Below are positions 4,050 to 40,626 of a DNA stretch of 64,000 bases, piece after piece; positions within the stretch are counted from its first letter, which is position 1, and each line of letters begins with the position of its first letter. This DNA comes from Flavobacterium cellulosilyticum (GTDB taxonomy: Bacteria; Bacteroidota; Bacteroidia; Flavobacteriales; Flavobacteriaceae), in NCBI RefSeq assembly GCF_004349355.1, contig NZ_SMFK01000001.1, positions 496,001-560,000 on the forward strand, written 5' to 3'. The position numbers and the translations under genes were made by a program. Below the pieces are notes generated by a model. That model was given only the letters and a program-made list of their open reading frames with translations, searched no databases and had not been told where the DNA came from.

Positions 4050-4061
4050 ACAATCGGTTGT
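4050..4061. promoter_or_regulatory. LacI-type operator O1 of xusA
   Basis: The near-palindrome ACAATCGGTTGT with a central CG, as expected for LacI-family operators. Its right half supplies the TTG of the -33 element of the xusA promoter, so a bound repressor would block polymerase. The same core recurs at 4171, 20940, 33209, 33366 and 38973, and in a variant form at 21046. Confidence 0.6.
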
Positions 4062-4087
4062 TTTTTTATTTTATTATTTTATATTTG
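4058..4087 (+). promoter_or_regulatory. predicted promoter of the xus operon
   Basis: TTG at 4058-4060, a 19-nt spacer, then TATATTTG at 4080-4087. This is an exact match to the -33/-7 pattern used by the Bacteroidetes primary sigma factor. The transcript would start near 4094. A second promoter closer to xusA was not seen. Confidence 0.6.
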
Positions 4088-4170
4088 TCTAATAGAAATT
4101 CACAATAGTTTGTTAATTTAATTCTAGAAACAGATTGAGATATTATTTTATCTCTTTATTATATTTTAAC

Positions 4171-4182
4171 ACAACCGATTGT
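4171..4182. promoter_or_regulatory. LacI-type operator O2 of xusA (inverted)
   Basis: ACAACCGATTGT, the exact reverse complement of the O1 site, 121 bp downstream of it and about 80 nt after the predicted transcription start. It could act as a roadblock site or as a partner of O1. Confidence 0.55.
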
Positions 4183-4370
4183 TATTCACTGTTTTTACTA
4201 AATTGAAATCTATTATAGTATGTTATAAACTGTTGTTATTTAAATTGATTTTTTACGATTTCTAAATGAAATTTACATTCATCAAAAATACTAGTATATT
4301 AAAAATATTATTAACTAAACCACAATAACCAAAAAGCCTATGAGATAATTATTATTTAAATAAAATCACC

Positions 4371-4520
4371 TTTTAGATGTACTAAATTAATGTTTTTGTA
4401 TTTTTTTTACTAAAAATTAGTATAGGATCTAAATTAGTAACAGGTGTTTTTTATATCAACGAAATCATATTTTTCATTTTATTAAGATTTTAAGTTAGGA
4501 AAATTTTATACATCTAAAAT
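4371..4520. repeat. 11-bp inverted repeat in the xusA leader
   Basis: TTTTAGATGTA at 4371-4381 is exactly complementary to TACATCTAAAA at 4510-4520, with 128 nt between. If the leader RNA is made, the arms could pair close to the xusA start. In such AT-rich DNA a chance match is possible. Confidence 0.3.
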
Positions 4521-4600
4521 TGATTTAATAAAGTGTAAAGTATTTGATATAAAAGTTAAGTGTTAATTTTTAATAAATTTAAAAATGTCAAAATATTAAT

Positions 4601-7600
4601 ATGAAAATACAATTAATAAAAATTCCACGTAAAGGTAAATTCGTGGTAATAGGAGTTTTGTTTCAGTTTATGTTTTCGAATGCAGTGTTAGCTAATGAAG
4701 GTCATAAGACTTTATCTTTATTAGTAGAAAAAAAGGTTCAAACTACACAACAACTAATAGTTACAGGCACAATTATTTCTGCTGAGGATAAGTTGCCAGT
4801 TCCAGGTGTTACAATAGTAGTTAAGGGTAACTCTACATTAGGGGTTATTTCTGATATTGATGGAAAATATAAAATTATTTTACCTAATTCAGTTGCCGTG
4901 TTAGTTTTTAGTAGCATTGGTTTCAATACTATTGAGAAAAAGATAAATGGACAATCGGAAATTAATGTTGTCATGACTCTAAATAAAACCACATTAGAAG
5001 AGGTTGTTATTGTAGGGTACGGAAAGCAAAAAAAGGCGAGTGTTGTTGCTGCAATTTCTCAGATTTCTGGATCAACATTAGAACGAGCAGGTGGAGTTCA
5101 AAGTATTGGAGCGGCTTTAACAGGTAATGCACCTGGATTAATTACTAGTGCAAGTACTGGTATGCCAGGTGAGGAAGATCCTCGTATAGTAATTCGTGGA
5201 ACTAGTACTTGGAATGGTTCGTCTCCTCTTATATTGGTCGATGGAATTGAGCGTCCAATGAGTAGTGTTGATATTGGTTCTGTAGAGTCGGTTTCTATTC
5301 TAAAAGATGCTTCTGCAACTGCAGTATATGGTGTTAGAGGAGCAAACGGTGTAATTCTTATCACTACTAAACGTGGAAGTGTAGGGAAAGCATTGATTAG
5401 AGCTAGAGTTAATACAACTATGAAAGTTCCTTCGCAATTGCCTAACAAATACGATTCTTACGATGCTTTAACTGTTAAAAATCAAGCCATTGAAAATGAG
5501 TTAGCATTATCACCATCTTCTTGGAATGACTATCTTCCACAAGCAATAATTGATAAATATAGATTTCCTGCTAATCAAGGAGAAAGAGAACGCTATCCAA
5601 ACGTGAATTGGGATGATACTTTATTTAAAGATTATACGATGTCTTATAATGCGAGTTTGAATGTAAGCGGTGGTACTGAATTTGTTAAGTATTTTACTAG
5701 CGCAGATTTTTTAAGTGAAGGTGATCTTTTTAGAAAATACAGTAATGATAGAGGATATGATCCAGGTTATGGATTTAACCGATTAAATGTTAGAACAAAT
5801 TTAGATTTTAAAATTACTCCGACCACAACCTTTGTAGTAAACCTTTCAGGTTCACATGCGGTTAAGAAAAGTCCTTGGGGAGCTTCCGGAGGTGAATATA
5901 CAATGTGGGATGCAGCTTATTCTACAGCTCCTGATGTGTTTTTACCTTATTATGAGTCAGATGGTTCTTGGGGTTATTATGCTCCAAATCCTGGTAAAGC
6001 ATCAAATTCAGTTCGTAATTTAGCTATTAGCGGTATCCAATATAAAACCACTACACGTCTTACTACTGATTTTGCAATAGATCAAAAACTAGATATGTTA
6101 GTAAGAGGTTTAAATTTTAAAGGGACAATAGCTTTAGATAACACTTTTGTAGAAGGTGATCGAGGGGTTAATGATTTGTACAATGATACCCAGCAGAAAT
6201 ATATTGATCCAGTTTCAGGAATGGCTACTTATACACAGAACTACGATACAACCAATAGGTTTGATTTTCAAGAAGGTGTAAAATGGTCTCCTAGTGCCGG
6301 TACAGTTCAGAATTGGGGAACACAGAGAAGGCTTTTTTATCAAGGACAATTGAATTATAGTCTAAATATACAGTCTGATCATGATATTACGGCAATGGGA
6401 CTTTTTAATCGTAATGAAAATGCAACTGGAAGCGAGATTCCTCATTATAGAGAAGACTGGGTTTTCCGTACTACTTATGGTTACAAAGGGAAATATTTTG
6501 CTGAATACAATGGAGCATACAATGGTTCCGAACAATTTAGTAAAAAAAATCGTTTTGCTTTCTTTTCTTCTGGAGGAATTGGTTGGATAGTATCTAAAGA
6601 AGGTTTTATGAAAAAAACAGAATCTTTCTTAGACCTACTTAAAGTGAGATTAAATTATGGAGAAATAGGTGATGATAATATTGGTGGTAGATTTGGTTAT
6701 TTGACGCAATGGTCTTATGGAGGACAATCTCAATTAGGAACAAGTGGTGAAGGAGGAGAGGCCAGTCCTTACACATGGTATAAACAGAGTTCTTTAGGGA
6801 ATGAATCTGTCTCTTGGGAAACGGCAAAAAAATCGAATTTAGGTATTGATTATGGATTCTTTAAAGGCTTAATAAAAGGCTCAGTTGATTTCTTTAAAGA
6901 AGATCGTTCAAATGTGTTTTTATCAGGTGGTGGTAGAGCAATTCCATCCTATTTTGGAGCCTCAGCTCCCCCAGCAAATTTAGGGAGAGTGAAAAACGAA
7001 GGTTATGAATTTGAGATTAAATTAAATCACACCTTTGCTAATGGTTTGAATTTGTGGGCTGATATGAATGTGTCCCATTCAAAAAACAAAATTATAAATG
7101 CAGATAACCCTGAATTATTGTCAGATTATCAAAAGTCTGAGGGTAAAGCCATCGGTCAAGCTTATTCCTATGTAGCACAAGGTTATTATAATACTTGGGA
7201 TCAATTGTATGCAAGTACCATTCAAGATACAAATGATAATCAAAAATTACCAGGTAGTTACAATATTCTAGATTATAATGCAGATGGTGTAATTAATTCT
7301 TATGACAATATACCTTATGGATTTACTGGTACTCCTCAAAATACGGCTAGTACTACCCTTGGTTTTAACTGGAAAAAGTTTAGTGCATTTGTTCAGCTTT
7401 ATGGAGTTAATAATGTTACACGACAAGTAGTACTTGGAAGTTTAACTTCGCAAAATCACGTAGTATATAATAATGGTTCATATTGGTCTAAAGAAGATAC
7501 TAATGCTGATTCACCAATGCCTCGTTGGCTTTCTACTCCAAGTGGTTATAACGATGCTCAGCGTTATATGTATGATGGTTCATATTTCCGTTTAAAAAAT

Positions 7601-7813
7601 GCTGAAATAGCTTATACTTTTGATTCAAGTACTTCATTTGTAAAATCGATAGGTATTCAAAATATAAGAGTATTTCTAAATGGTGATAATCTTTATTTCT
7701 GGTCCAAAATGCCTGACGATAGAGAGAGTAATTATGCTGGAACTGGTTGGGCATCTCAAGGAGCCTATCCAACAGTTAAACGTTTTAATCTAGGAGCTAA
7801 TATTATTTTTTAA
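4601..7813 (+). CDS. xusA: SusC-like TonB-dependent xylo-oligosaccharide transporter XusA
   Basis: An outer-membrane channel that works with its SusD lid (next gene) to import large xylan fragments using TonB energy. Residues 1-32 form a signal peptide; about 51-127 a carboxypeptidase-regulatory-like beta-sandwich; EEVVIVGYG (133-141) is the usual TonB-box-like segment; about 145-257 the plug, with the canonical GxAPG...RIVIRG and ILVDG blocks; the remaining 800 residues form the beta-barrel, ending in an aromatic-rich strand with Phe last. The length of 1070 aa is normal. It is the first gene of the tandem SusC-SusD-SusC-SusD-SusE-like-GH10 arrangement known as xusA-E/xyn10C from Prevotella bryantii and Bacteroides ovatus, on which the symbol rests. 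Two LacI-type operators lie in its leader. Confidence 0.9.
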   Translation: MKIQLIKIPRKGKFVVIGVLFQFMFSNAVLANEGHKTLSLLVEKKVQTTQQLIVTGTIISAEDKLPVPGVTIVVKGNSTLGVISDIDGKYKIILPNSVAVLVFSSIGFNTIEKKINGQSEINVVMTLNKTTLEEVVIVGYGKQKKASVVAAISQISGSTLERAGGVQSIGAALTGNAPGLITSASTGMPGEEDPRIVIRGTSTWNGSSPLILVDGIERPMSSVDIGSVESVSILKDASATAVYGVRGANGVILITTKRGSVGKALIRARVNTTMKVPSQLPNKYDSYDALTVKNQAIENELALSPSSWNDYLPQAIIDKYRFPANQGERERYPNVNWDDTLFKDYTMSYNASLNVSGGTEFVKYFTSADFLSEGDLFRKYSNDRGYDPGYGFNRLNVRTNLDFKITPTTTFVVNLSGSHAVKKSPWGASGGEYTMWDAAYSTAPDVFLPYYESDGSWGYYAPNPGKASNSVRNLAISGIQYKTTTRLTTDFAIDQKLDMLVRGLNFKGTIALDNTFVEGDRGVNDLYNDTQQKYIDPVSGMATYTQNYDTTNRFDFQEGVKWSPSAGTVQNWGTQRRLFYQGQLNYSLNIQSDHDITAMGLFNRNENATGSEIPHYREDWVFRTTYGYKGKYFAEYNGAYNGSEQFSKKNRFAFFSSGGIGWIVSKEGFMKKTESFLDLLKVRLNYGEIGDDNIGGRFGYLTQWSYGGQSQLGTSGEGGEASPYTWYKQSSLGNESVSWETAKKSNLGIDYGFFKGLIKGSVDFFKEDRSNVFLSGGGRAIPSYFGASAPPANLGRVKNEGYEFEIKLNHTFANGLNLWADMNVSHSKNKIINADNPELLSDYQKSEGKAIGQAYSYVAQGYYNTWDQLYASTIQDTNDNQKLPGSYNILDYNADGVINSYDNIPYGFTGTPQNTASTTLGFNWKKFSAFVQLYGVNNVTRQVVLGSLTSQNHVVYNNGSYWSKEDTNADSPMPRWLSTPSGYNDAQRYMYDGSYFRLKNAEIAYTFDSSTSFVKSIGIQNIRVFLNGDNLYFWSKMPDDRESNYAGTGWASQGAYPTVKRFNLGANIIF

Positions 7814-7823
7814 ATTATAGATT

Positions 7824-9710
7824 ATGAAAAATTATTTCAAAACAATAGTAAAATATAGCCTTTTAGTTGGCTTGGTCGCCTTTCCGATATCTTGTGAACA
7901 ATATCTTGATGTATCTCCTAATACTTTGATTTCAGATACTGAAGCATTTGAGGATTTTACTAAATTTCAAGGTTTTACTGAAGAACTATATCAATGTATT
8001 CCAGATTTTACCAATGGATATTGGACAAATTCATGGAATTGGGGAGAAGATGAAATTCAATCTTCAGCTCGTGATTTCCATTTTGTATGTAAAATCGACA
8101 ATGGAAATTTATGGGGTTGGCAATCGCAACAGGATGGTTGGCAAGCAGGTTGGATGAATCGTAACAATGTTTCAACAGACAACGACCGTTTTCATAAAGA
8201 TTTATGGACATTAGGTTGGGCTGGTATTCGTAAAGCAAATATAGGTTTAGCCAATATTGATAAATTGAATGCAACTCAGGAAGAAAAAGATTTAATAAAA
8301 GGGCAACTTTTGTTTTTTAGAGGATGGTTTCACTTCCAGTTTATTCAATATTTTGGAGGGCTGCCATATATTGATACTGTACTTCCTAGCGATCAGCCTT
8401 TGAGATTACCAAGACTTAGTTATGCCGAATGTGCAAATAAAGCAGGGGCAGATTTTAGAGCAGCAGCAGATTTATTACCAGTTGATTGGGATAATACCAC
8501 TGTTGGTAAAAGAACCCTAGGAAAAAATGCTTTGCGTATCAACAAAATTATGGCCTTAGGTTACTTAGGTAAAAATTATCTTTGGGCAGCAAGTCCGTTG
8601 ATGAACAAAGAATCAACAGGAAGCGCAACTTATAATATAGAATTCTGTAAAAAAGCAGCTAAAGCTTTTGGTGAATTATTAACTAATACGGAGAAGAGTG
8701 ATTCTAAATACTCATTATTGCCATTCACTAATTACAGTGATAACTTTTATACCACTGGTAAAAACTGGGCAATTCCTGGAGGAGCTGAAGCTATTTTTAG
8801 AGGACCTTATTGGGGAGCTAATGGTTCTAACTGGGGTACAAGTAAGCAATACCAACCATCACCTATACTAGCAGATGGAGATGTGAAATTCTTGCCTACT
8901 GCAAACTATGTTGATAATTATGGTATGGCAAACGGTCTTCCAATAACAAGTATTACTCAAGCTGATGCAGAGTCAGGTTATGACCCAACTCATCCTTGGC
9001 AAGGTCGTGATCCTCGTTTTTATAACGATATTGTTTATGATGGTGTAAAATGTGTTAAAGGAACATTGCCTGCAGCTTCTGAATCAGATCGTTATGCTAA
9101 ATTGTTTACGGGAGGTAGTTATCGTAATATAAGTACTGGAAGTAGAACAGGTTATTTACTTTATAAATTTATTCCAATTACTGCTAATAAATACGATGGA
9201 GGTTATGACTGGGGTAATAATTTAAATATCCATATTCCATGGATGCGTTTATCAGATATTTACTTGATGTATGCCGAATCAGCCGCTATAGGTTATAATT
9301 CTCCAACTGCGAAAGATGAAGCGTATAATAAGACTGCTGTAGATGCTATCAATATTGTTAGAGATAGAGCAGGTGTAGGTCATGTTGCGAACAAGTTCTT
9401 AGCTTCTGTTGATCCTTTTATGAATGAAGTAAGACGAGAGAGAGCAGTTGAATTAGCTTTTGAAGGTCACCGCTTTAATGATCTACGTCGATGGATGCTA
9501 TTTATAAAAAGTCCATATACTTTAAAGAAATCAATTGAATTTGATAGAGATCCAAGTTTTAGTACCGCAAATCCTAAAACAAATAAAGTGCTTAATATTC
9601 GCGAAACTGTTATTCTAGAAAGAAATTTAAGTGACAAGCATTATTGGTTACCATTGAAAAATGCAGATGTAAATATGTATTTGGAGTTTGCTCAAAATCC
9701 AGGATGGTAA
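7824..9710 (+). CDS. xusB: SusD/RagB-like xylan-binding lipoprotein XusB
   Basis: The surface lid of the XusA transporter, binding xylan chains and handing them to the channel. The leader ends in the lipobox FPIS-C24 followed by EQ, an acid residue as in Bacteroidetes surface-export signals. The body shows the SusD fold: alpha-helical repeats around RKANIGLANIDKLN and LLFFRGWFHFQ, and the C-terminal RERAVELAFEGHRFNDLRRW block present in nearly all SusD proteins. The final residues NPGW are also typical. It begins 10 nt after xusA, so the two are co-translated or at least co-transcribed. The length of 628 aa is a little above the family average. Confidence 0.9.
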   Translation: MKNYFKTIVKYSLLVGLVAFPISCEQYLDVSPNTLISDTEAFEDFTKFQGFTEELYQCIPDFTNGYWTNSWNWGEDEIQSSARDFHFVCKIDNGNLWGWQSQQDGWQAGWMNRNNVSTDNDRFHKDLWTLGWAGIRKANIGLANIDKLNATQEEKDLIKGQLLFFRGWFHFQFIQYFGGLPYIDTVLPSDQPLRLPRLSYAECANKAGADFRAAADLLPVDWDNTTVGKRTLGKNALRINKIMALGYLGKNYLWAASPLMNKESTGSATYNIEFCKKAAKAFGELLTNTEKSDSKYSLLPFTNYSDNFYTTGKNWAIPGGAEAIFRGPYWGANGSNWGTSKQYQPSPILADGDVKFLPTANYVDNYGMANGLPITSITQADAESGYDPTHPWQGRDPRFYNDIVYDGVKCVKGTLPAASESDRYAKLFTGGSYRNISTGSRTGYLLYKFIPITANKYDGGYDWGNNLNIHIPWMRLSDIYLMYAESAAIGYNSPTAKDEAYNKTAVDAINIVRDRAGVGHVANKFLASVDPFMNEVRRERAVELAFEGHRFNDLRRWMLFIKSPYTLKKSIEFDRDPSFSTANPKTNKVLNIRETVILERNLSDKHYWLPLKNADVNMYLEFAQNPGW

Positions 9711-9754
9711 TTATTAAGATTATTTTAAAAATTATAAAAACAAATTAGAAAATA

Positions 9755-12700
9755 ATGAGATATATACAACTAAAAATAGTGTTATGTTTTTTAATTATTG
9801 CTTTTTCTCCCACAGTTTTAATTGCTCAAGTTGTTAGAAATATTGATGTCAATGGTAGTGTTAGGAGTGCTAAAGGAGAGCCAGTTATGGGTGCTACTTT
9901 AGTTAGTAAAAAAGGTAATATTTCCACAACTACTGATTTTGCAGGTAAGTTTACAATTAATGTACCTATAAATTCAAATTTATTAATAAATGCTACGGGG
10001 TTTGTTTCAAAATCTGTAGTTGTTACTCCAAAATCGAATGAAATTGAAATATTATTAGATAAGGATCAGTCAGTACAAGTAGCTTTTAGGAAAGTTCAAG
10101 AAAAAGACCTTTTAGGAGACGTATCCTATGTTAACATTCCTGAAATTTTGAAAAATAATTACACAACATACAGTTTAGATGGTTTACAAACTTTTGTAGG
10201 TGGTTTTAATGGTAATATCTGGGGGGCTGGAGGCTATTTAGTATTAGTTGACGGGATTCCACGTGATGCAACATCTATATTACCTGTAGAGATTGAACAA
10301 GTTTCGTTTTTAAAAGGAGTTGCTGCAGTAGCATTGTATGGAAGCCGTGCTGCTAAAGGTGTTGTTTATATCACTTCTAAAAAAGGCGTTATTCAAAAAC
10401 AACAAATTGCTGTCAGATTCGATGCAGGGATTAATCTAGCTAAAAGCTTCCCTAAATACTTAGGTTCAGCAGAATACATGAGCTATTACAATCAAGCGCG
10501 TTCAAATGATGGCTTATCACCATTGTATTCACAGGAGACTATCTATAATTATGCGTCTGGTAGTAATCCTTACCGTTTTCCAAATGTAGATTACTATTCA
10601 TCTGATTATCTGAAAGATTTTGCTAAAAGATATGATGCCAATGTAGAAATTAAAGGCGGAAATAAAATAGCCCGATATTATACAGTAGTAAATTTCTCTA
10701 ATACAGGAGATTTGTTGAATTTTGGTGAGGCTAAGAAAAACAATACAAATCGTTTTAATATAAGAGGAAATGTAGATCTTGCAATTAATGATTTCATTTC
10801 ATGTACAATTGGTACTAACGCTATCTATTATAATGGTAGAGGAGTTAATACAAATTATTGGAATAGTGCAGCAAATACAAGACCTAATCGATTTTCTCCA
10901 TTATTACCTACGGATATGATTGAAGAAAGCGACCAAGGTTCCCAAGGTATAATAAAAGATAGTAACTATCTTATTGATGGTAAATATTTATTAGGGGGTA
11001 CGCAATTGGATTTAAATAATTCATTTGCTGCAATTTACGCGGGAGGATATAATACATATACTAATCGTCAGTTTCAATTTAATACAGGTGTAAATGCTAA
11101 TTTGAATAGTCTTTTAGATGGATTGTCTTTTAAGTCTAAGTTTGCTGTGGATTATGAAACTTCCTATTCTCAATCCTACAATAATAACTATGCGGTATAT
11201 GAAGCAGCGTGGAATAACTATGCAGGAAATGATCAAATAACATCTTTAACTAAATATGGTGATGATTCTAAATCAGGAATTCAGAATATTTCTAATAGTG
11301 CATACAAACAAACCATAGCTTTTTCAGGTCAATTTGATTATGAGAAAAAGATTGAAGGAGGTCATAACTTTTCAGCTATGTTGATAGCAAATGGATTTCA
11401 ACAAGCCCTTTCACAAGTTTACCATAAGGTAAGTAATGCAAATTTAGGACTTAATTTAAGTTATAATTTTGCTGGAAAATATTACGCTGAATTTAATGAA
11501 GCTGTAGTGCATTCTGCTAAATTTGCTAAAGGAAAGAGACTTGCAACTTCACCTACATTGTCTTTGGGTTGGAGACTTAGTCAAGAGAATTTCCTGAAAG
11601 ATTGGTCCTCTTTAGACAACTTGAAATTGACAGTTTCTGCCGGTATATTGAATACAGATTTAGATGTTTCTAACTATTATTTGTATCAAAGTATCTATAC
11701 ACAAACGGATGGAGCTTGGTTCAGTTGGAGAGATGGTTCTTTAAACAGAAGTACTGATTCTCGAAGAGGTGAAAATTTAGACCTTTCGTATGCTACAAGA
11801 AATGAGGTAAACGTAGGTTTAGAGGCGTCATTTCTTAAAAAACTAATAACGTTTAATGGTACTTTCTTTGCTAACAAAATTAAGGGTAATCCCATACAAG
11901 CATCTGTTTTATATCCTAATTATTTTAGTACAGGTTTTCCAAATACCTCTTTTATACCTTATGTTAATTATAACAATGATGATCGTATTGGTTTTGATTT
12001 CAACGTTAGATTTAATAAAAGAGTTGGTCAAGTAGATTTGTCTTTAGGAGTTACAGGTAATTATTATGACAGTAAAGCTTCTAAAAGAGCAGAACAGTTT
12101 GAAAACGACTATCAAAATAGACAAGGGAAACCAATAGATGCTCTTTGGGGACTTAAAAGTGAAGGCTTTTTTATGAATGATTCTGATATTGTTGGTCATG
12201 CTTCACAAACATTTGGTACAGTTAAGCCTGGTGATATTAAATACCATGATCAAAATGGAGATGGTGTTATTAATTCACAAGATGAGGTTTATTTAGGTAA
12301 AGCTGGATGGAGTGGTTCTCCTTTTACTGGAGGTATTAATTTTACTGCCAAATGGAAAACATTAACATTTTTCGCATTAGCAACTACACAAATTGGTGCT
12401 TATGGTATGAAAAACAATTCTTATTTTTGGATAGATGGTGAAGATAAATATTCAGTTATGGTAAGAAATAGTTGGACTGTTGAAAATCAAGCAACTGCTA
12501 CTTATCCTAGATTGACTACAAATACAAGTGATAATAACTACCGTTCATCAGATTTTTGGATTTACAGTACAAACAGAATTGATTTAGCGAATGTTCAGAT
12601 TTCATATGATTTTCCAAAAAAGTTGATTCAAAATTCATTTCTAAGTGAATTAGGAGTTTATGTAAATGGTTCTAATTTGTTAACAATCTCTCCAGAACGC

Positions 12701-12775
12701 GAAACTATGGAGTTAAATATTGGTGGATCGCCACAAACTAGGTTCTTCAATTTAGGCTTAAAAGCTTTATTTTAA
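9755..12775 (+). CDS. xusC: second SusC-like TonB-dependent transporter XusC
   Basis: A second outer-membrane xylan oligomer channel. Signal peptide 1-24 (TVLIA-Q), carboxypeptidase-regulatory-like domain about 30-105, plug about 118-208, then the barrel to residue 1006. It differs from XusA: the usual VVxVGYG segment is replaced by VQVAFRKVQEKDLLG (107-121), and the plug passes from GLQTFVGGFNG straight to GAGGYLVLVDGIPRD, without the PG...IRIRG stretch. YGSRAAKGVVYITSKKG (195-211) confirms the plug end. This divergent form is what is expected for the second SusC of xus clusters. It follows xusB by 44 nt and precedes its own SusD by 28 nt. Confidence 0.88.
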   Translation: MRYIQLKIVLCFLIIAFSPTVLIAQVVRNIDVNGSVRSAKGEPVMGATLVSKKGNISTTTDFAGKFTINVPINSNLLINATGFVSKSVVVTPKSNEIEILLDKDQSVQVAFRKVQEKDLLGDVSYVNIPEILKNNYTTYSLDGLQTFVGGFNGNIWGAGGYLVLVDGIPRDATSILPVEIEQVSFLKGVAAVALYGSRAAKGVVYITSKKGVIQKQQIAVRFDAGINLAKSFPKYLGSAEYMSYYNQARSNDGLSPLYSQETIYNYASGSNPYRFPNVDYYSSDYLKDFAKRYDANVEIKGGNKIARYYTVVNFSNTGDLLNFGEAKKNNTNRFNIRGNVDLAINDFISCTIGTNAIYYNGRGVNTNYWNSAANTRPNRFSPLLPTDMIEESDQGSQGIIKDSNYLIDGKYLLGGTQLDLNNSFAAIYAGGYNTYTNRQFQFNTGVNANLNSLLDGLSFKSKFAVDYETSYSQSYNNNYAVYEAAWNNYAGNDQITSLTKYGDDSKSGIQNISNSAYKQTIAFSGQFDYEKKIEGGHNFSAMLIANGFQQALSQVYHKVSNANLGLNLSYNFAGKYYAEFNEAVVHSAKFAKGKRLATSPTLSLGWRLSQENFLKDWSSLDNLKLTVSAGILNTDLDVSNYYLYQSIYTQTDGAWFSWRDGSLNRSTDSRRGENLDLSYATRNEVNVGLEASFLKKLITFNGTFFANKIKGNPIQASVLYPNYFSTGFPNTSFIPYVNYNNDDRIGFDFNVRFNKRVGQVDLSLGVTGNYYDSKASKRAEQFENDYQNRQGKPIDALWGLKSEGFFMNDSDIVGHASQTFGTVKPGDIKYHDQNGDGVINSQDEVYLGKAGWSGSPFTGGINFTAKWKTLTFFALATTQIGAYGMKNNSYFWIDGEDKYSVMVRNSWTVENQATATYPRLTTNTSDNNYRSSDFWIYSTNRIDLANVQISYDFPKKLIQNSFLSELGVYVNGSNLLTISPERETMELNIGGSPQTRFFNLGLKALF

Positions 12776-12803
12776 ATTAACAAATCATTAAAAAATAAAT
12801 GAT

Positions 12804-14555: not shown

Positions 14556-14606
14556 GGTTTATAGAGCCTATATGTATGCTATTTATTTTAATATAATTTC
14601 AAAAAA

Positions 14607-15641: not shown

Positions 15642-15665
15642 TTATCAATTATAAAACTAAATGAT

Positions 15666-17348: not shown

Positions 17349-17404
17349 TAGTGTATTACTAAACCGGTTTCTTTATCGGTTATTTAAAACAGTTAATTTA
17401 AATT

Positions 17405-17441
17405 TCCCTTTGGATGTGTTTTTTAACAACAGCCAAAGGGA
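17405..17441 (+). terminator. hairpin between xyn10C and the GH5 gene
   Basis: TCCCTTTGG at 17405-17413 pairs perfectly with CCAAAGGGA at 17433-17441; the 19-nt loop has a further TGTT/AACA pairing. The T-run lies in the loop and not after the stem, so it may be a partial terminator or an RNA-processing or stabilising hairpin that sets lower expression of the GH5 gene. Confidence 0.4.
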
Positions 17442-17466
17442 TTATTAATTTTAAAATCATTCTAAA

Positions 17467-18990: not shown

Positions 18991-19095
18991 ATGAAAATGA
19001 ATAAAAAGTAGCAAACTAGTATTATTTTTAAAAGTAGCAATAGGGGCTTTTTATTCTCTTGTCCCTCTTCGGATTAACGACTTTGTTGCTCAAAA
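18991..19095 (+). pseudogene. 5' remnant of a secreted-protein gene, possibly susC-like
   Basis: The ATG at 18991 begins MKMNKK and then meets a stop. If one base is restored in the A-run near 19003-19007, the frame continues SSKLVLFLKVAIGAFYSLVP and then LRINDFVAQNKT, a convincing signal peptide with a VA-QNKT cleavage region of the kind found at the start of SusC-like receptors. The coding sense is lost near 19095, where the tail of the esterase remnant begins in the opposite direction. The identity is an inference from the signal peptide alone. Confidence 0.35.
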
Positions 19096-23681: not shown

Positions 23682-23685
23682 GAAG

Positions 23686-25948: not shown

Positions 25949-25974
25949 ATTCAATAATTTATTTTAGGTTTTGG

Positions 25975-30045: not shown

Positions 30046-30058
30046 TTACAATCTAAAA

Positions 30059-30796: not shown

Positions 30797-30815
30797 ATTT
30801 TTTTTAAGTTTAATC

Positions 30816-30870
30816 GGTTAACTGTTTAATTGGTTAATTGTGAAATGCCAAAGCGATTAAACAGTTAGCC
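30816..30870 (-). repeat. inverted repeat between the GH67 and SDR genes
   Basis: GGTTAACTGTTTAAT (30816-30830) pairs with ATTAAACAGTTAGCC (30856-30870) except at one base. It lies in the 128-nt gap after the GH67 stop on the minus strand and could lower readthrough into the SDR-uxuA-GH115 genes or stabilise RNA ends. Confidence 0.4.
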
Positions 30871-30924
30871 AGTTGAACTTATATATTTTTTTTATTGCCA
30901 TTGAAATTGCAATTGATTTTGAAC

Positions 30925-33108: not shown

Positions 33109-33208
33109 TATTTTTATAGTTAAATTTATTTTAAAAAACTTAATTAATTTATTGTCTGAAAAAAAAATCAAGCATATTATACTATTATTAGTATATTTAT
33201 TTATATTT

Positions 33209-33220
33209 GCAATCGGTTGC
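33209..33220. promoter_or_regulatory. LacI-type operator, GH67 side
   Basis: GCAATCGGTTGC with central CG, 101 nt before the GH67 start. It is part of a 26-nt block (33203-33228) that recurs at 33360-33385 with a single difference. TATATTTG just ahead of it (33202-33209) also fits a plus-strand -7 box. Confidence 0.55.
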
Positions 33221-33363: not shown

Positions 33364-33394
33364 TTGCAATCGGTTGTGTAAAAGTGTAGTTTTG
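33364..33394 (+). promoter_or_regulatory. predicted promoter of the GH3 gene
   Basis: TTG at 33364-33366, a 20-nt spacer and TAGTTTTG at 33387-33394. The operator at 33366-33377 fills the space between the two elements. The predicted leader is about 70 nt. Confidence 0.55.
33366..33377. promoter_or_regulatory. LacI-type operator, GH3 side
   Basis: GCAATCGGTTGT, lying between the -33 and -7 boxes of the GH3 promoter. It is exactly 157 bp from its partner at 33209, close to fifteen helical turns. Confidence 0.58.
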
Positions 33395-33471: not shown

Positions 33472-35721
33472 ATGAAAACAAAATTATTCTCATTAATTAA
33501 GCTAGTAGTACTTTTAATATTTGTCTCCTCTAATAGTCAAACTACCGCAAAGACTGATGCCAAAAATTTTGAAACATTTGCATTTTACAATCCTTCACTA
33601 TCTATTGATACTAGAGTAAACGATTTAATTTCTAGACTAACATTAGAAGAAAAAGCCAATCAAATGATGCATAATACCTCCGCAATCGAAAGATTAGGTA
33701 TTCTTCCTTATAGTTACTGGAACGAAGCCCTTCATGGTGTAGGTCGATCGGGCGTTGCCACTATTTTTCCACAAGCTATTGGACTCGGTGCTACCTTCGA
33801 TAATGATTTGGCCTATAGGGTTTCTTCAGCAATTTCGGATGAAGCTAGAGCAATGCACAATATAGCTAAATCCAAAGGCTTTAATTTGCAGTATGATGGA
33901 TTAACTTTTTGGACCCCGAATATTAATATCTTTAGAGATCCTCGCTGGGGTCGTGGCCAAGAAACCTATGGTGAAGATCCGTTCTTGACGGCTACAATTG
34001 GGACTGCTTTTGTAAAAGGCTTGCAAGGAAATAATCCAAAATACTTAAAAACGGCTGCTTGCGCCAAACATTTTGCAGTACACAGCGGACCTGAAAAATT
34101 ACGACACGAATTTAATGCAGAGGCCAGCCCAAAAGATTTGTGGGAAACTTATTTACCCGCTTTTAAGGCTCTTGTTGAAGCTGATGTCGAAGCAGTAATG
34201 TGTGCTTATAATAGTACCAATGGTGCTCCTTGTTGTTCAAATAATCATTTAATTACTGATGTTTTAAGAAATCAATGGCATTTTAAAGGGCATGTTGTGA
34301 GTGATTGCTGGGCAATTCAAGATTTTTATACTCCAAAAGGAAAAGGTGGTCACGGTGTTGTAAAAACTGAAGCCGAAGCTGCTGTATTAGCCGTAAAAAG
34401 TGGTGTCAGTCTCAATTGTGGAAATTCATATGAAGCGCTACCAGATGCTGTAAAAGAAGGCTTGATAACTGAAAAAGAAATTGACAAACAATTAGCAATA
34501 TTGCTTCGAACCAGATTTAAATTAGGTTTGTTTGATCCTATGGGAAGTAACCCTTTTGATGCAATATCGTATAATGTTGTAAATAGCTCAGAGCATCGAT
34601 CATTAGCGAAAGAGGTGGCTCAAAAAAGTATGGTATTGTTAAAAAATAATGGAATTTTACCCTTAAAAAATAACTTATCAAAATATTTTGTTACTGGTCC
34701 AAATGCAACTAGCATCGAAGTGCTTTTAGGAAATTATTATGGTATTAATCCCAATATGGTAACTATCTTAGAAGGAATTACCTCGGCAATCAGTCCTGAA
34801 AGTCAATTGCAATATAGATTAGGTGCTATGCTGAATCAAAAATCGATCAACCCAATAAATTATGCCACTGGGAATGCAGGAAATAGCGATGTTACAATTG
34901 TAGTATTAGGTGTTTCGAGCACGTTAGAAGGTGAAGAAGGCGATTCGATAGATTCGGATACAGCCGGTGATCGATTAAATTATGATTTACCAGAAAATCA
35001 AATAGAATACCTAAGAGATTTAAGAAAAGCTGCTGATAAAAACACTGAAGATAAAAAACCAATCATTGCAGTAATAACAGGTGGAAGTCCTATGAATCTG
35101 GCTGAAGTTCAAGAATTAGCTGATGCCGTTTTGTTAGTTTGGTACCCTGGTGAAGAAGGCGGAAATGCTGTTGCGGATATCCTTTTTGGGAAAATTTCTC
35201 CATCTGGGAAGTTACCCATAACCTTCCCAAAATCATTAGATCAATTGCCTCCTTTTGAAGATTATTCTATGAAAGGACGAACCTATAAATATATGAATGT
35301 AGATCCAATGTATCCTTTTGGGTTTGGATTGAGCTACACCAATTTTACATATGGAGAAGCAAAAGTAGCATCAACTAAAATCTCCAAAAAAGACAATCTT
35401 AAAGTGGCTGTAAATGTTACAAATTCCGGAAAAGTACCATCAGAGGAAGTGGTACAATTGTATGTTACGGATTTAAAAGCATCTGTAACAGTTCCAAATT
35501 TTCAATTAATGACTATGAAACGAATTGCTCTAAATCCTGGAGAAACAAAAGAAGTTGTTTTTGATCTTACGCCAAAAGCATTCGAAATGGTTAAAAATGA
35601 TGGTTCACGAACAATAGAATCGGGTGATTTTAAAATTTATATCGGTGGTTCCAGTCCAATGAAACGTAGTTTTGAACTTGGTGCTCCAAAAATGGCAGAA
35701 AAAATAATTACAGTAAACTAA
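33472..35721 (+). CDS. GH3 beta-xylosidase
   Basis: An exported exo-enzyme that releases xylose from xylo-oligosaccharides. Signal peptide about 1-27. The N-terminal barrel has the nucleophile D278 in HVVSDCWA and the KH pair at 199-200 (ACAKHFAVHSGPE); the second alpha/beta domain covers about 385-610, and a fibronectin-III-like domain closes the protein (about 640-735). At 749 aa it lacks the PA14 insertion often found in Bacteroidetes GH3 enzymes. The pattern matches beta-xylosidases more than beta-glucosidases, which is also what the locus suggests. It shares 19 nt of spacing with the esterase gene behind it. Confidence 0.9.
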   Translation: MKTKLFSLIKLVVLLIFVSSNSQTTAKTDAKNFETFAFYNPSLSIDTRVNDLISRLTLEEKANQMMHNTSAIERLGILPYSYWNEALHGVGRSGVATIFPQAIGLGATFDNDLAYRVSSAISDEARAMHNIAKSKGFNLQYDGLTFWTPNINIFRDPRWGRGQETYGEDPFLTATIGTAFVKGLQGNNPKYLKTAACAKHFAVHSGPEKLRHEFNAEASPKDLWETYLPAFKALVEADVEAVMCAYNSTNGAPCCSNNHLITDVLRNQWHFKGHVVSDCWAIQDFYTPKGKGGHGVVKTEAEAAVLAVKSGVSLNCGNSYEALPDAVKEGLITEKEIDKQLAILLRTRFKLGLFDPMGSNPFDAISYNVVNSSEHRSLAKEVAQKSMVLLKNNGILPLKNNLSKYFVTGPNATSIEVLLGNYYGINPNMVTILEGITSAISPESQLQYRLGAMLNQKSINPINYATGNAGNSDVTIVVLGVSSTLEGEEGDSIDSDTAGDRLNYDLPENQIEYLRDLRKAADKNTEDKKPIIAVITGGSPMNLAEVQELADAVLLVWYPGEEGGNAVADILFGKISPSGKLPITFPKSLDQLPPFEDYSMKGRTYKYMNVDPMYPFGFGLSYTNFTYGEAKVASTKISKKDNLKVAVNVTNSGKVPSEEVVQLYVTDLKASVTVPNFQLMTMKRIALNPGETKEVVFDLTPKAFEMVKNDGSRTIESGDFKIYIGGSSPMKRSFELGAPKMAEKIITVN

Positions 35722-35740
35722 TTTGATAAAAACACACATA

Positions 35741-37678
35741 ATGAAAAGATTCAAAGTACTATTATTGGTCCTTATTTCAGTACAATCCTTTACTCTTTTG
35801 GCTCAAATTAAATTGCCTAAATTAATCAGCAATGGATTGGTATTGCAACGAAATGAAAAAATAAAAATATGGGGTTGGGCTGCTCCAAAAGAACAAATCA
35901 AATTAGAATTTAAATCTAAAACCTATACTACATCGGCAGATGTAAAAGGTAATTGGAGTATTTTATTGCCTGCACAAAAAGCGGGTGGCCCCTATGAAAT
36001 GACGTTAAAAGCAAGTAATCAAATTACATTAAAAGACATTCTTTTTGGCGATGTTTGGGTATGTTCAGGTCAATCGAATATGGAACTGCAAATGGAGCGC
36101 CTAAAGGAAAAATATTTCGAAGAAATAAAAAACTCCAAAAACAATGAAATCCGACAATTTACCGTACCCGATAAATATGATTTTAAAAGCCCTCAAAACG
36201 ATGTTGACTCTGGAAATTGGGTTGCAGCGAATCCAGAAACAGTTTTAGAATTTTCAGGAGTTGCTTACTTTTTTGCGAAAAAAATTTATGAAAAAGAACA
36301 TATTCCTATTGGATTAATTAATTCCGCTTTAGGAGGTTCGCCAGTAGAGTCTTGGATGAGTGATGAAGCTTTAAAAGCATTTCCTAATGCCTATGATGAA
36401 GTCCAAAAATTTAAAAACGATCAGCTTATTGCTGATATTGAAGCCAGCGATAAAAAACGAAATGACGATTGGTATGCATTAGTCAATGCAACAGATAAAG
36501 GGTTAGCGGATGAAAATCAAAAATGGAGTCAGGCCCGTTTTGATGATACAAATTGGAGCAAAATGGCTATTCCAGGATATTGGAAAGACCAATCCATTGG
36601 TAATGTAAACGGTGTAGTTTGGTTTAGAAAAGAAATAGAAATACCCGAATCGATGGCAGGCAAACCAGCTAAATTAATGCTTGGACGAATTGTAGACCAA
36701 GATTTTGTTTATGTTAATGGAGAAATGGTAGGAACAACAGGTTATCAATATCCTCCAAGAAGATATGAGGTGAAACTGGGGATTCTGAAACCAGGAAAAA
36801 ACACCATTGCTATTCGAGTGATCAATAATAGTGGTAATGGAGGTTTTGTTAATGACAAGCCGTATTATTTGGCTGTGGCCAATGATACCCTAGATTTAAA
36901 AGGGGAATGGAGATACAAATTAGGAGCAGAAATGAAACCTTTGGCTGGACCAACATTTATTCGTTGGAAACCAGAAGGACTTTACAATGCCATGATTGCT
37001 CCTTTATTAAATTTAAAAATCAAAGGGGTGATTTGGTATCAAGGAGAATCTAATACCGGAAATCCAACTGGATATACTCAATTATTTACTACTATGATAA
37101 ACGATTGGAGATCCAAATGGAATCAAGGCAATTTCCCTTTTTTATATGTTCAACTAGCCAATTATATGGACCACCATCCCAATCCTATAGAAAGTAATTG
37201 GGCCGCTTTGCGACAAGCACAATTAGAATCACTTCGAGTACCAAATACGGGAATGGCCGTAACAATAGATATCGGAGAATGGAATGATATTCATCCATTA
37301 AATAAAGAAGCTGTTGGAAACCGTTTGGCTTTTTTAGCCCGAAAACTTGCCTATGGGGATGCCAACGTTGTTGAATTAAGTCCAATTCCTTTGAGTACTG
37401 AATTCAAATCGGACAAAGTAATTGTTACTTTTAAAAATGTAGATGGCGGATTGATTGCAAAAAATGGATCTGAACTAAAATCTTTTGCTATTTCTAATGA
37501 TGGCAAAAACTTTGTATGGGCAAATGCCAAAATTGTAGGCAAAACAGTGGAAGTTTGGAATGACAAAATAGATAATCCAACGAATGTAAGGTATGCTTGG
37601 GATGAAAATCCGGTCGAAGCTAATTTGTTTTCTAAGGAACGACTTCCAACAACTCCATTTGAAGTAAAAAAGAAATAA
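35741..37678 (+). CDS. SGNH esterase of the sialate O-acetylesterase type, probable xylan acetylesterase
   Basis: An exported esterase expected to remove acetyl groups from xylose units. The frame is open from a TTG at 35723, but the ATG at 35741 gives a proper signal peptide (1-21, TLLA-Q). The SGNH core is split: the Ser block CSGQSNMEL (nucleophile S112) and later WYQGESN and DIGEWNDIHP with the Asp-His pair. Between them, at about residues 265-385, lies a GH2-type jelly-roll domain (KPAKLMLGRIVDQDFVYVNG). The C-terminus is a small beta domain. Proteins of this design are often labelled sialate esterases; acetylxylan is the likelier substrate here. Confidence 0.82.
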   Translation: MKRFKVLLLVLISVQSFTLLAQIKLPKLISNGLVLQRNEKIKIWGWAAPKEQIKLEFKSKTYTTSADVKGNWSILLPAQKAGGPYEMTLKASNQITLKDILFGDVWVCSGQSNMELQMERLKEKYFEEIKNSKNNEIRQFTVPDKYDFKSPQNDVDSGNWVAANPETVLEFSGVAYFFAKKIYEKEHIPIGLINSALGGSPVESWMSDEALKAFPNAYDEVQKFKNDQLIADIEASDKKRNDDWYALVNATDKGLADENQKWSQARFDDTNWSKMAIPGYWKDQSIGNVNGVVWFRKEIEIPESMAGKPAKLMLGRIVDQDFVYVNGEMVGTTGYQYPPRRYEVKLGILKPGKNTIAIRVINNSGNGGFVNDKPYYLAVANDTLDLKGEWRYKLGAEMKPLAGPTFIRWKPEGLYNAMIAPLLNLKIKGVIWYQGESNTGNPTGYTQLFTTMINDWRSKWNQGNFPFLYVQLANYMDHHPNPIESNWAALRQAQLESLRVPNTGMAVTIDIGEWNDIHPLNKEAVGNRLAFLARKLAYGDANVVELSPIPLSTEFKSDKVIVTFKNVDGGLIAKNGSELKSFAISNDGKNFVWANAKIVGKTVEVWNDKIDNPTNVRYAWDENPVEANLFSKERLPTTPFEVKKK

Positions 37679-37713: not shown

Positions 37714-38745
37714 TTATATTTTTTTTGAAGATTCACGAACAAGAACCTCGGTATTTAAAAAAGTAATTTCTTTAATCTCGTGCCTTTTGAGTGATTTTAA
37801 ATTTTTCAAAATAATTTCTGCAGAAGCTTTTCCCATTTTTGATGCAGGATGGGTTATTGTAGACAAATTAGGTTCAATTATATGTGAAATAGGGTCGTTA
37901 TTAAAACCGATAACGGCCAATTCTTCAGGTATTTTAATACCTCTTTTTTTAGCGGTTTGTATTGCACTTACGCCAATAATATCCCCTGAAGCAAAAATTC
38001 CATCGGGCGGATTCGGCAAGTCAAATAGAATATTACTTTCCCTCTCCCCTTCTTCATAAGAAACCGATTTTAAATTGACGATTAATTCTTCCTCTATAGG
38101 TAAATTAAAATCCTTTAATGCATCTTTATACCCTCTTTTCCTTTCACTATATAAATTTCCAAACTCAGAACCTGCGGTAAGATGTGCAATTCGAGTACAA
38201 CCTTGTTCTATAAGATGTTTTGTTGCTTTATATCCAGCGGCATAATTGTCTATTATAACACGAAAAGTATTGAAATCTTTTGGTACCCTATCGACAAAAA
38301 CTAATGGAATATTACTGGTTACAAATTGCTGAAAATGGGATGTATCACGGGTTTCCATTGATAATGAACATATAACTCCGCTAACTCGACTGCTGTATAA
38401 GGATTTAGCCATACTTACTTCCTCTTTATACGAGTCATGGGATTGCATTATAATTACATTGTATCCAGATTTTCGGGCTGTTATCTCTATTCCACTAATC
38501 AATGAGGAAAGAAAGGGTTGGGTAACTGTTGGAATTAATACTCCAATAGTATTCGATTTGTTTCCTCGCAAACCAGCAGCCAAAGTATTAGGGACATAGC
38601 CCATTTCTTCTGCAGTCTTTTTTACTTTTTTTATTGTTTTAGCACTAATTGTTGGATGATCTTTTAAAGCTCTTGAAATTGTTGAGGTGGCAAGATTTAA
38701 TTTTTCAGCAATGTCATAGATCGTTATATCCTTATTTTCTTCCAT
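37714..38745 (-). CDS. LacI-family transcriptional regulator of the xylan locus
   Basis: A sugar-responsive DNA-binding protein of 343 aa. The N-terminal HTH (residues 6-26, ITIYDIAEKLNLATSTISRA) and hinge helix (NTLAAGLRG) are standard, and about 60-340 is a periplasmic-binding-protein-like sensor (TIGVLIPTVTQPF, ASGDIIGVSA). It is the only LacI protein in the window, and seven CG-centred palindromes of LacI type lie at xylan genes, so it is proposed as their binder; the ligand could be xylose, a xylo-oligomer or glucuronate. It is convergent with the esterase gene (35-nt gap) and divergent from the GH43 at 38881. No operator was seen at its own promoter. Confidence 0.9.
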   Translation of the reverse strand: MEENKDITIYDIAEKLNLATSTISRALKDHPTISAKTIKKVKKTAEEMGYVPNTLAAGLRGNKSNTIGVLIPTVTQPFLSSLISGIEITARKSGYNVIIMQSHDSYKEEVSMAKSLYSSRVSGVICSLSMETRDTSHFQQFVTSNIPLVFVDRVPKDFNTFRVIIDNYAAGYKATKHLIEQGCTRIAHLTAGSEFGNLYSERKRGYKDALKDFNLPIEEELIVNLKSVSYEEGERESNILFDLPNPPDGIFASGDIIGVSAIQTAKKRGIKIPEELAVIGFNNDPISHIIEPNLSTITHPASKMGKASAEIILKNLKSLKRHEIKEITFLNTEVLVRESSKKI

Positions 38746-38767
38746 AATTTAAAAACTGAGTAAGTAA

Positions 38768-38775
38768 CAAATATA
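38768..38775 (-). promoter_or_regulatory. predicted -7 box of the LacI gene
   Basis: The plus-strand CAAATATA reads TATATTTG on the minus strand, an exact TAnnTTTG, placing the start of the transcript about 16 nt before the ATG. No good -33 TTG was found at the usual distance. Confidence 0.4.
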
Positions 38776-38819
38776 CATTTTTTTAATAAATAGCATTCTG
38801 ATTACTCCCTAAAATAAAA

Positions 38820-38849
38820 TTGTACTTTACTAAAAAAATAATATATTTG
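38820..38849 (+). promoter_or_regulatory. predicted promoter of the GH43 lipoprotein gene
   Basis: TTG at 38820-38822, a 19-nt spacer and TATATTTG at 38842-38849. The transcript would begin near 38856, about 25 nt before the ATG. The operator belonging to it seems to lie inside the gene at 38973. Confidence 0.6.
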
Positions 38850-38880
38850 AAATTGAAAATTATTCCTAAAAAATCATCGT

Positions 38881-40626
38881 ATGTCAATATTCATTTCAAA
38901 ATGCTTAAAAACATTTTCTGTACTTATTTTACTGACTTCAACATTTTCATGTAAAAAAATTTTCCAAAAAACACAACCGATTGCGTATTCTGAATATGCG
39001 GCTTTTGATTGGTTTGAATATCAAGGAAAAGATGCTGTCTTTAAATCTATCTCAAAATCAGATGATGAATATCTTAATCCAATTTTAGCGGGTTTCTATC
39101 CTGATCCAAGTATTTGCAGTGCTAATGGTAAGTATTATTTAATTACCTCTTCATTTGTCTATTTCCCGGGACTTCCAATTTTTGAAAGTGTTGATTTAGT
39201 CAATTGGAAACAAATAGGTCATGTGATAGATCGTAAAGAGCAAGCTGATTTTTCTGGAGCGGGTGTTTCCGAAGGGTTGTATGCACCAACAATCCGTTAT
39301 AACAAAGGACAATTTTATGTTATTTGTACTAATGTGAGTGGAGATGGTAATTTTATAGTTACTGCGACAAATCCTGCAGGTCCATGGTCTGACCCTATTG
39401 TTATTCCAGGAGTTAATGGTATTGATCCCGATATTTTCTTTGATGAAGACGGCAAAGTGTACATTACGCATAATGGCCCACCACCCAACAATATTTCGAT
39501 ACATAATGGACATAGAGCCATCTATATGTTTGAGTATGATCTAAAGAATCATACCATTGCAAGCGAATCAAAACTTATTGTGAACGGCGGGACTGATATG
39601 GCTATAAAACCAGTTTGGATTGAAGCCCCGCATATTATAAAAAAAGACCAATATTATTATTTGATTTGTGCACAAGGAGGAACTGCCTATGAACATTCTG
39701 AAGTGGTATTTAGAAGTAAAAATGTGTACGGTCCCTATTTGAGTTATGAGCATAATCCAATATTGACGCAAACATTTCTAGACCCCAATAGAAAAAACGA
39801 AATCTCAACTTCAGGTCATGCTGATTTTGTTCAATTACCTAATGGTGATTGGTGGTCCGTGTTTTTAGCTTGTAGACCTTACGGAATGGAATTGTACAAT
39901 ACCGGCAGAGAAACATTCATGATGCCTGTAGAATGGAAAGAAGGTTGGCCTACAATTGTTGATGGGAAAAAACCATTGCCTTTTGTGAACAAAAAACCAA
40001 ATTTGTCTCCTTCTAAAGAAAACATTGCTCCAACTACTGGAAATTTTGTTTCACACGATGATTTTAATAATAATCAACTTGATTATATATGGAATTTTAT
40101 CCGAACTCCTTTGGAGAAATGGTATGAATTAAGTGGTGGCAAACTATATATTAAACCACGTAAGGAATCCATTCATACTGAAACTAATTTTTCATTTATT
40201 GGAAGAAGACAACAACATTTGCAATTTGAAGCTTCTACGAAGTTGAATTATACTTTGACAAATACATTACAAACTGCAGGATTGGTGGCTTTTCAAAACG
40301 AAAAACAATATTTATTGCTCGGTAAACGTATCAATTCTGAAGGTAAAACAGAGGTATATCTTGAAGAAACAGCCGCAACTGTAAATGCTGGAAAATCAAT
40401 TATTCTCGCAAAACAAGAATTAAAGGATACATCGAAAGACTTGTTTTTGAAAATTGAAGGAAAAACCCGTTACTATGATTTTTATTATAAGACAACCGAA
40501 AAAGGAGAATGGTTGCTATTAGCGAAAGACATTGATGCTGTGATACTAAGCACCAAAGAAGCCAAAGGTTTTGTTGGAACATATATAGCAATGTATGCAT
40601 CATTAAATCATTTTGGAGAAAAATAA
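38881..40626 (+). CDS. GH43 beta-xylosidase-type lipoprotein with C-terminal beta-sandwich
   Basis: A lipid-anchored GH43 of 581 aa. Lipobox TFS-C24 followed by KK, which suggests retention on the periplasmic side. Residues 66-370 are the propeller: base D75 in FYPDPSICS, D182 in GIDPDIFFDEDG and general acid E248 in WIEAPHI. Residues about 395-575 form a concanavalin-like domain of the kind that follows GH43 beta-xylosidases (SFIGRRQQHLQFEASTKL). Activity on xylose- or arabinose-capped oligomers is likely; the exact specificity is open. The 5' part of the coding sequence carries a LacI-type operator. The xylose operon follows 83 nt downstream. Confidence 0.87.
   Translation: MSIFISKCLKTFSVLILLTSTFSCKKIFQKTQPIAYSEYAAFDWFEYQGKDAVFKSISKSDDEYLNPILAGFYPDPSICSANGKYYLITSSFVYFPGLPIFESVDLVNWKQIGHVIDRKEQADFSGAGVSEGLYAPTIRYNKGQFYVICTNVSGDGNFIVTATNPAGPWSDPIVIPGVNGIDPDIFFDEDGKVYITHNGPPPNNISIHNGHRAIYMFEYDLKNHTIASESKLIVNGGTDMAIKPVWIEAPHIIKKDQYYYLICAQGGTAYEHSEVVFRSKNVYGPYLSYEHNPILTQTFLDPNRKNEISTSGHADFVQLPNGDWWSVFLACRPYGMELYNTGRETFMMPVEWKEGWPTIVDGKKPLPFVNKKPNLSPSKENIAPTTGNFVSHDDFNNNQLDYIWNFIRTPLEKWYELSGGKLYIKPRKESIHTETNFSFIGRRQQHLQFEASTKLNYTLTNTLQTAGLVAFQNEKQYLLLGKRINSEGKTEVYLEETAATVNAGKSIILAKQELKDTSKDLFLKIEGKTRYYDFYYKTTEKGEWLLLAKDIDAVILSTKEAKGFVGTYIAMYASLNHFGEK
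38973..38984. promoter_or_regulatory. LacI-type operator inside the GH43 coding sequence
   Basis: ACAACCGATTGC spans codons for residues about 31-35 (TQPIA). It is about 117 nt after the predicted transcription start, comparable to the downstream site of xusA. A roadblock role is the simplest reading. Confidence 0.5.

Follow-up and report, generated by a model that had tools for sequence, protein, structure and literature searches.

The window analysed here, a stretch of 64,000 nucleotides from Flavobacterium cellulosilyticum (C1:496001-560000, on contig C1 of a genome with 4,657,187 bases in 36 contigs), carries a xylan-degradation locus along which a CG-centred palindrome recurs. The palindrome, with the consensus RCAAYCGRTTGY, is very probably the operator of a LacI-family protein encoded in the same locus (37714-38745), which would act as a repressor and switch the xylan units together. 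Judged by sequence comparison, a LacI regulon of this familiar, ordinary kind is well supported. A first reading from the DNA letters (hereafter the sequence-only reading) had paired the one LacI gene lying among the sites with the palindrome as its operator, which the comparison with relatives supports. The comparison likewise supports its proposal of one repressor for the two-SusCD operon and the CE15, GH67, GH3 and GH43 genes, but the reach assigned to that repressor was too small: the regulon extends approximately 39 kb beyond the window, upstream.

In the proposed mechanism, a LacI dimer would bind the sites when xylan-derived sugar is absent and would cover the start region or the -33 element, whose TTG is at once the operator's right half, thereby excluding RNA polymerase. 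A xylan breakdown product (a xylo- or aldouronic oligosaccharide, or a monomer) would release LacI, and the SusCD, GH67, GH3, CE15 and GH43 units would then come on together. The lacI gene itself would probably be under the same control.

Palindromic sites in the window

The exact sequence CAATCGGTTG occurs six times in the window. Two of these copies precede the SusC1 operon, namely the predicted operator O1 (4051-4060, plus strand, 26.0 bits) and a second site 121 bp downstream of it (4172-4181, minus strand, 22.1 bits). The CE15 gene (19564-20847, minus strand) has one exact copy upstream (20941-20950, plus strand, 27.6 bits) together with the variant CAAGCGATTG, which has palindromic flanks (21047-21056, minus strand, 13.9 bits). 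Two predicted operators lie between GH67 and GH3: one 38 bp before the GH67 start (33210-33219, plus strand, 25.1 bits), the other ~100 bp before the GH3 start (33367-33376, plus strand, 24.9 bits). The last exact copy (38974-38983, minus strand, 27.1 bits) is located inside the 5' coding part of a GH43 gene, ~230 bp upstream of lacI. Scores refer to a weight matrix that was built from the sites of relatives and used to score C1:436001-560000, where eight sites reach 22-28 bits; simulated background yields 0.2 matches at ≥12 bits and 0.6 at ≥10 bits per 124 kb.

All seven CG-centred palindromes listed in the sequence-only reading exist, at positions one base higher than given there (its count was 0-based). 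The site it placed at 21046 (here 21047) is present, but as a weak variant: the G at its variant place is found in 0 among 163 intergenic sites of relatives. Its additional copy at 18872 (here 18873, CAATCAGTTG) is also present in the sequence, but we dropped it as an operator: the central CG is broken, the copy is located after the end of GH5 where no adjacent gene start was seen, and it scores 11.9 bits.

With up to one mismatch, CAATCGGTTG has 15 matches in the window, compared to 2.82 expected and a maximum of 7 in 100 shuffles. The relaxed core CAANCGNTTG has 7 matches versus 0.83 expected (shuffle maximum 3). None of the seven CAANCGNTTG copies is found past 38983, although some of the one-mismatch copies are. 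We also considered whether paired sites are helically phased, which would point to looping, and rejected this, the window spacings of 121, 106 and 157 bp having no common phase. In relatives the spacings are mostly 75-78 and 308-331 bp, with a vector length of 0.48 at a 10.5-bp period, computed over 40 gaps that come from related sequences.

Distribution of the palindrome in the genome

Genome-wide, CAATCGGTTG occurs 14 times, versus 2 for its reversed control. Eight of the 14 fall within the ~78 kb xylan locus (binomial p ~2e-11, the locus limits having been set after seeing the sites): the six of the window and two upstream of it at xylan genes, one 134 bp before a SusC gene (C1:457385) and one ~110 bp before a GH43 gene (C1:491683). 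Two more are arranged back to back on contig C12, and four are intragenic, in genes for a molybdopterin oxidoreductase, an altronate dehydratase, a Wzz-type protein and a sugar-isomerase-like protein. The intragenic copies are what one would point to if the palindromes were due to chance or formed a structural element such as a terminator or repeat. The extended RCAAYCGRTTGY matches none of these four, and the two that fall in sugar genes lie deep within the reading frame (~290 and 1020 nt); moreover, the counts exceed shuffles and controls, and conservation spans genera. We hold this explanation to be extremely improbable.

The extended RCAAYCGRTTGY is found 13 times, versus 3 for its control: the xylan locus holds 8 of these, C12 has 2, one precedes a gene on C7, and the remaining 2 are intragenic. 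The sequence-only reading had named frequent occurrence at unrelated genes as refuting it; with 8 of 13 copies in the xylan locus, the motif is not frequent at unrelated genes. By contrast, the relaxed core CAANCGNTTG has 74 matches versus 43 for its control and is therefore not specific by itself. We set aside two matches that fall within genes, at C1:315631 (a hybrid two-component regulator, HTCS) and at C13:52741 (a glycosyltransferase-28).

The two C12 operators (C12:567872 and 567889) form a long inverted repeat with 16-base arms (C12:567872-567898). They lie ~45 bp before the gene for a 258-aa CBM4_9 protein with a type IX secretion system (T9SS) tail, which is unlinked to the xylan locus. 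No close orthologue of this protein is found among the matches listed in 60 genus relatives, hence no footprint is possible there; the best of the matches listed has 36% identity over residues 91-251 (E 4e-14), and most matches concern the T9SS tail. On C7, the site at C7:53907 lies 40 bp before a 1992-aa open reading frame (ORF) with a borderline T9SS-tail match.

Conservation around relatives of the LacI

We compared the loci surrounding relatives of the window LacI, retaining the best 80 of 100, with protein identities of 42-91%. They are mostly from Flavobacterium, with others from Lutibacter, Confluentibacter, Flaviramulus, Maribacter, Salegentibacter, Leeuwenhoekiella, Marinoscillum, Fulvivirga, Rufibacter and metagenome-assembled genomes. 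These loci contain 185 copies of CAANCGNTTG, of which 166 are intergenic, intergenic DNA making up 177 kb of 1.54 Mb; at least one intergenic copy is present in 63 of the 80 loci. Six control palindromes have 9-36 matches each, 0-4 of them intergenic. The consensus of 163 distinct sites is RCAAYCGRTTGY, flanked more weakly by TTTAC/GTAAA; since the search used the inner core as its pattern, what the consensus adds is limited to the preferences at +/-2, +/-6 and the flanks.

When cores are counted in an interval reaching from 600 bp upstream of a start to 140 nt into the gene, among loci that have the respective gene, a site is found at GH67 in 34 of 40 loci, at GH3 in 32 of 39, at MFS in 14 of 20 and at the LacI gene in 38 of 80. 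For SusC, the figures are 23 of 28 loci for the type that occurs upstream of the window and 3 of 4 for the SusC1 type. The recognition helix of the window LacI (LATSTIS) is encoded in 62 loci, and 50 of these have an intergenic site.

The sites might instead belong to a different regulator, be it one of the genome's other LacI proteins or the GntR-type protein encoded at 40710-41735. The GntR gene is part of the same locus, and there are six LacI genes in the genome, five besides the one discussed here. Furthermore, at least four distant LacI relatives (~40% identity) have CAATCGATTG ~50-80 bp from their own starts (by eye, among the matches listed); the core is thus not exclusive to the window LacI. 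In the three Rufibacter loci (L111, L112, L113), which have the most distant LacI proteins (42-45% identity), sites upstream of lacI occur only in altered form, the best intergenic matches differing in one or both arms. Set against this, a GntR relative occurs in 14 of the 80 loci and a site before the GntR gene in 0 of these 14, compared to the 63 loci with intergenic sites. Around the other five LacI genes, no copy of the core CAANCGNTTG was found in the 18-28 kb fetched around each; the exact copy inside the altronate dehydratase gene lies ~18 kb from the LacI gene on C11. Sites upstream of lacI itself, counted above, likewise favour the window LacI. Assignment to a different regulator is in our view very unlikely.

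We note that the altered operator-like sites of Rufibacter are of the GAAACCGATT and CAACCGATTTC types, at matching positions upstream of lacI. A joint drift of recognition helix and operator was considered and rejected: the Rufibacter helices read LSPTT and not LATST, but L105 with VSPTT keeps the usual CAACCGATTG.

Co-occurrence of the palindrome and the LacI

The number of motifs per genome was compared to the presence of the LacI in 149 genomes of the family, drawn evenly. Of these, 18 were counted as having the LacI (at least 55% identity, a limit chosen once the gap in identities from 56% to 46% was apparent) and 131 as lacking it, including G124 with a stop-broken copy. The mean number of RCAAYCGRTTGY copies is 6.3 in genomes with LacI (5.9 when the window genome is excluded) and 2.26 in those without (p 1e-7), while the reversed-pattern control has 2.6 and 2.1, respectively (p 0.08). 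The number of motifs thus tracks the LacI, in agreement with the sequence-only reading.

GH67 is found in 24 of the 149 genomes (25 genes), namely in 17 of the 18 with LacI and in 7 of the 131 without. The sequence CAAYCGRTTG is present upstream (~0.9-1.2 kb) of 14 of the 18 GH67 genes in LacI genomes versus 0 of 7 elsewhere (p 0.0007); for the relaxed core the count in LacI genomes is 16 of 18. The site therefore goes with the LacI and not with the enzyme gene.

Promoter geometry and the sign of regulation

TTG is the consensus of the -33 element. At O1, the TTG at 4058-4060 coincides with the expected -33 element, and a predicted -7 box TATATTTG (4080-4087, plus strand) follows 19 bases after the operator. 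The same spacing is seen in relatives with another SusC type: the arrangement operator-N19-TAnnTTTG is found in 21 of 23 relatives whose SusC gene, of the type seen upstream of the window, has a site no more than 300 bp away, as well as at window position 4051 and at C1:457385. In Flavobacterium psychrophilum, the TAnnTTTG box spans -12 to -5 (PMC9723704). With the -7 box so placed, the N19 spacing puts the operator centre at approximately -36 and the right-half TTG at the -33 element. The geometry is consistent with an occluding operator position at SusC promoters. The predicted start would leave a ~500-nt leader before SusC1, and the 4172 site would then lie downstream of the start. At several SusC1-type, GH67, GH3 and MFS sites, a TAnTTTTA or TATATTTG box abuts the operator and would put the start inside it, which makes for a weaker case.

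Some LacI-family proteins act as activators, and the window LacI could bind the sites and activate, or act both ways. Distal sites ~400-500 bp before SusC in relatives would suit such a role. The proximal SusC sites, by contrast, overlap the expected -33 element, a blocking position, and the double site at C12:567872/567889 follows a TATATTTG box, a downstream placement that makes activation improbable. An activating or dual role is distinctly unlikely on these grounds, and we retain the LacI as a predicted repressor.

Several observations weigh against a single LacI repressor acting throughout. Its sign is read from operator position only, and the N19-TAnnTTTG geometry is absent at the GH67 and MFS sites, while the GH3 sites lack the same spacing. 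Among SusC1-type site-gene pairs in relatives, an exact box is found in 1 of 4, and there it is one base off (25, compared to 24). A site of their own is rare for genes that are probably operon-internal (GH43b 7 of 32, GH10 3 of 34, UxuA 0 of 24, GH115 0 of 10), and both GH67 genes of G087, a LacI genome, are without a site. An intergenic site is lacking in 17 of the 80 loci. Of these, two are under 4 kb (L062, L110), three are cut by a contig end (L036, L054, L059), and for five (L047, L051, L054, L056, L057) a second copy in the species has sites (L088, L083, L078, L085 and L075, respectively). Three Confluentibacter loci (L089, L094, L096) have the LacI, GH3, GH67, GH10 and MFS genes, yet no site, for which a LacI repressor offers no explanation. 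Finally, most of the 80 loci come from one genus and are not independent.

The site inside GH43

The 38974 site lies ~98 nt inside the GH43 ORF 38881-40626. Two relatives keep the in-gene site, L087 at 98 nt and L090 at 104 nt; in the latter (Lutibacter), the codons give QSVA versus QPIA, and the palindrome is kept at the DNA level in the other orientation. Overall, this GH43 type has a site near its start in 3 of 5 loci. In other loci, sites upstream of lacI lie 81-304 bp from its start. Because the 38974 site, ~230 bp before lacI, is close to these, it probably serves lacI, GH43 or both. The site which the sequence-only reading gave as 38973 is present, but sits inside the GH43 frame and is also placed as an autoregulatory lacI operator. 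We also observed a core match CAAACGGTTG at C1:472326 (18.8 bits), outside the window and 48 nt inside another GH43 gene, as at 38974; its role as an operator is uncertain.

The LacI-family regulator and other regulators

The regulator (37714-38745, minus strand) is a protein of 343 aa with the recognition helix LATSTISRAL and the hinge PNTLAAGLRG. Its Pfam domains are LacI (PF00356, 42.6 bits, cut-off 27) and Peripla_BP_3 (PF13377, 100.6 bits, cut-off 26.5). Among solved structures, CcpA is the closest relative, followed by other members of the LacI family, PurR among them. The hinge leucine of LacI-family proteins enters the central CG step of the operator, and the operators of CcpA and PurR are CG-centred. 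When PNTLAAGLRG is aligned with PNAVARGLAS of CcpA, the hinge-helix leucine matches that of CcpA. The regulator hence resembles CcpA and PurR in its LacI helix-turn-helix (HTH) plus Peripla_BP_3 make-up, in sequence kinship and in the CG-centred palindrome of its predicted operator, but differs in that its targets are SusCD-type xylan loci of Bacteroidota. It remains below the cut-off in all 18 listed NCBIfam models (CytR, RbsR, CcpA, PurR, GalR and others), the best being CytR with 209.7 versus 436 bits, and is therefore no named member of the LacI family.

No HTCS gene was found among the 40 window proteins or the 20 upstream proteins scanned, the latter representing part of the upstream ORFs. 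An HTCS gene (C1:311797-315930; Reg_prop, HisKA, response regulator, AraC HTH) is located ~141 kb upstream of the locus; it has CAACCGTTTG ~155 bp upstream and a core copy inside its reading frame. Downstream of the GH43 gene, the GntR-HTH protein (40710-41735) has a below-cut-off Peripla_BP_3 match and directly precedes an FGGY kinase gene and a xylose-isomerase-like one (weak Pfam matches). It is perhaps a separate xylose regulator.

Comparison with known systems

The control of flavobacterial polysaccharide utilization loci has mostly been described through HTCS, ECF or AraC types, and the XylR of other phyla has a different operator (xyl box). LacI-type XylR controls xylanase genes in other bacteria (PMC10766802), and the present system would be alike in having LacI-family control of such genes. 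In Bacteroides and Prevotella, an HTCS is described as controlling the xylan loci (xusABCD with XynR; PMC8002723). The locus described here shares with them SusC/SusD pairs, GH10, MFS, GH43, GH3, GH115, GH95 and GH31; unlike them, its operon is headed by a LacI-type operator, and the scanned window proteins include no HTCS. Further LacI-family regulators of Bacteroides are the uronate regulators KdgR, UxuR, UxaR and UxmR, described together with an NrtR-type XylR (PMC3878776). They are similar to our LacI in protein family, phylum and a role in sugar-acid catabolism. A lacI gene is listed among the xylan genes of Gramella flava (PMC5306329), as here, with no operator or regulon described in the part of that source available. 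LacI-family or HTCS regulators of beta-1,4-xylan systems are mentioned in passing in PMC12125979. In the literature searched, which covered the accessible parts of papers and left most subscription papers and RegPrecise outside, neither the operator nor the regulon is named; the motif letters as a query returned unrelated titles among the matches listed.

It is possible, though somewhat less likely than not, that a LacI master repressor spans the flavobacterial lineage, has relatives that share its operator in Marinoscillum and Fulvivirga loci, and took over two-SusCD xylan loci, which are HTCS-run in gut Bacteroidota, with an operator half-site built in as the -33 element. For xylan digestion in flavobacteria, the proposed regulon supplies a regulator, an operator and a set of targets that can be put to the test. 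The operator could be used to find further xylan genes, as was the case for the upstream SusCD and GH43-GH31 units, and could serve in xylan-inducible promoters for Flavobacterium johnsoniae.

Predicted target genes

Operon units were inferred from gene spacing and families were assigned by Pfam. The first unit (4601-18708, plus strand) consists of SusC-SusD-SusC-SusD-DUF5627 protein-GH10-GH5 and is xus-like. The GH67 site heads an apparent eight-gene unit, GH67-SDR-UxuA-GH115-GH10-GH10-MFS-GH43 (21199-33171, minus strand), whose largest gap is 128 bp, after GH67. The opposite site precedes a GH3-SASA esterase unit (33472-37678, plus strand). A further GH43 with GH43_C2 (38881-40626, plus strand; lipoprotein signal by eye) is a probable target. 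The target layout of the sequence-only reading is thereby modified: GH67 stands for a whole unit, CE15 has two sites of its own, and 38974 also fits autoregulation of lacI. GH127 and GH43-CBM6 (13-3615, plus strand) are probable targets as the downstream part of the GH43-GH31 unit, with its operator outside the window at C1:491683. The locus upstream, continuous with the window, contains SusCD, GH95, SASA, GH97, GH31, GH43, GH8, esterases, a GH9-like protein and the GH43-GH31 unit, according to the Pfam scan of the 20 upstream proteins.

The CE15-type glucuronoyl esterase was assigned by its Pfam GCE_fung match. Past its stop, the minus strand at 18990-19563 can still be read as an Ig-like linker and a CBM9-like stretch (domains by eye), interrupted by stops and a shift of frame; a C-terminal binding module may have been lost from CE15.

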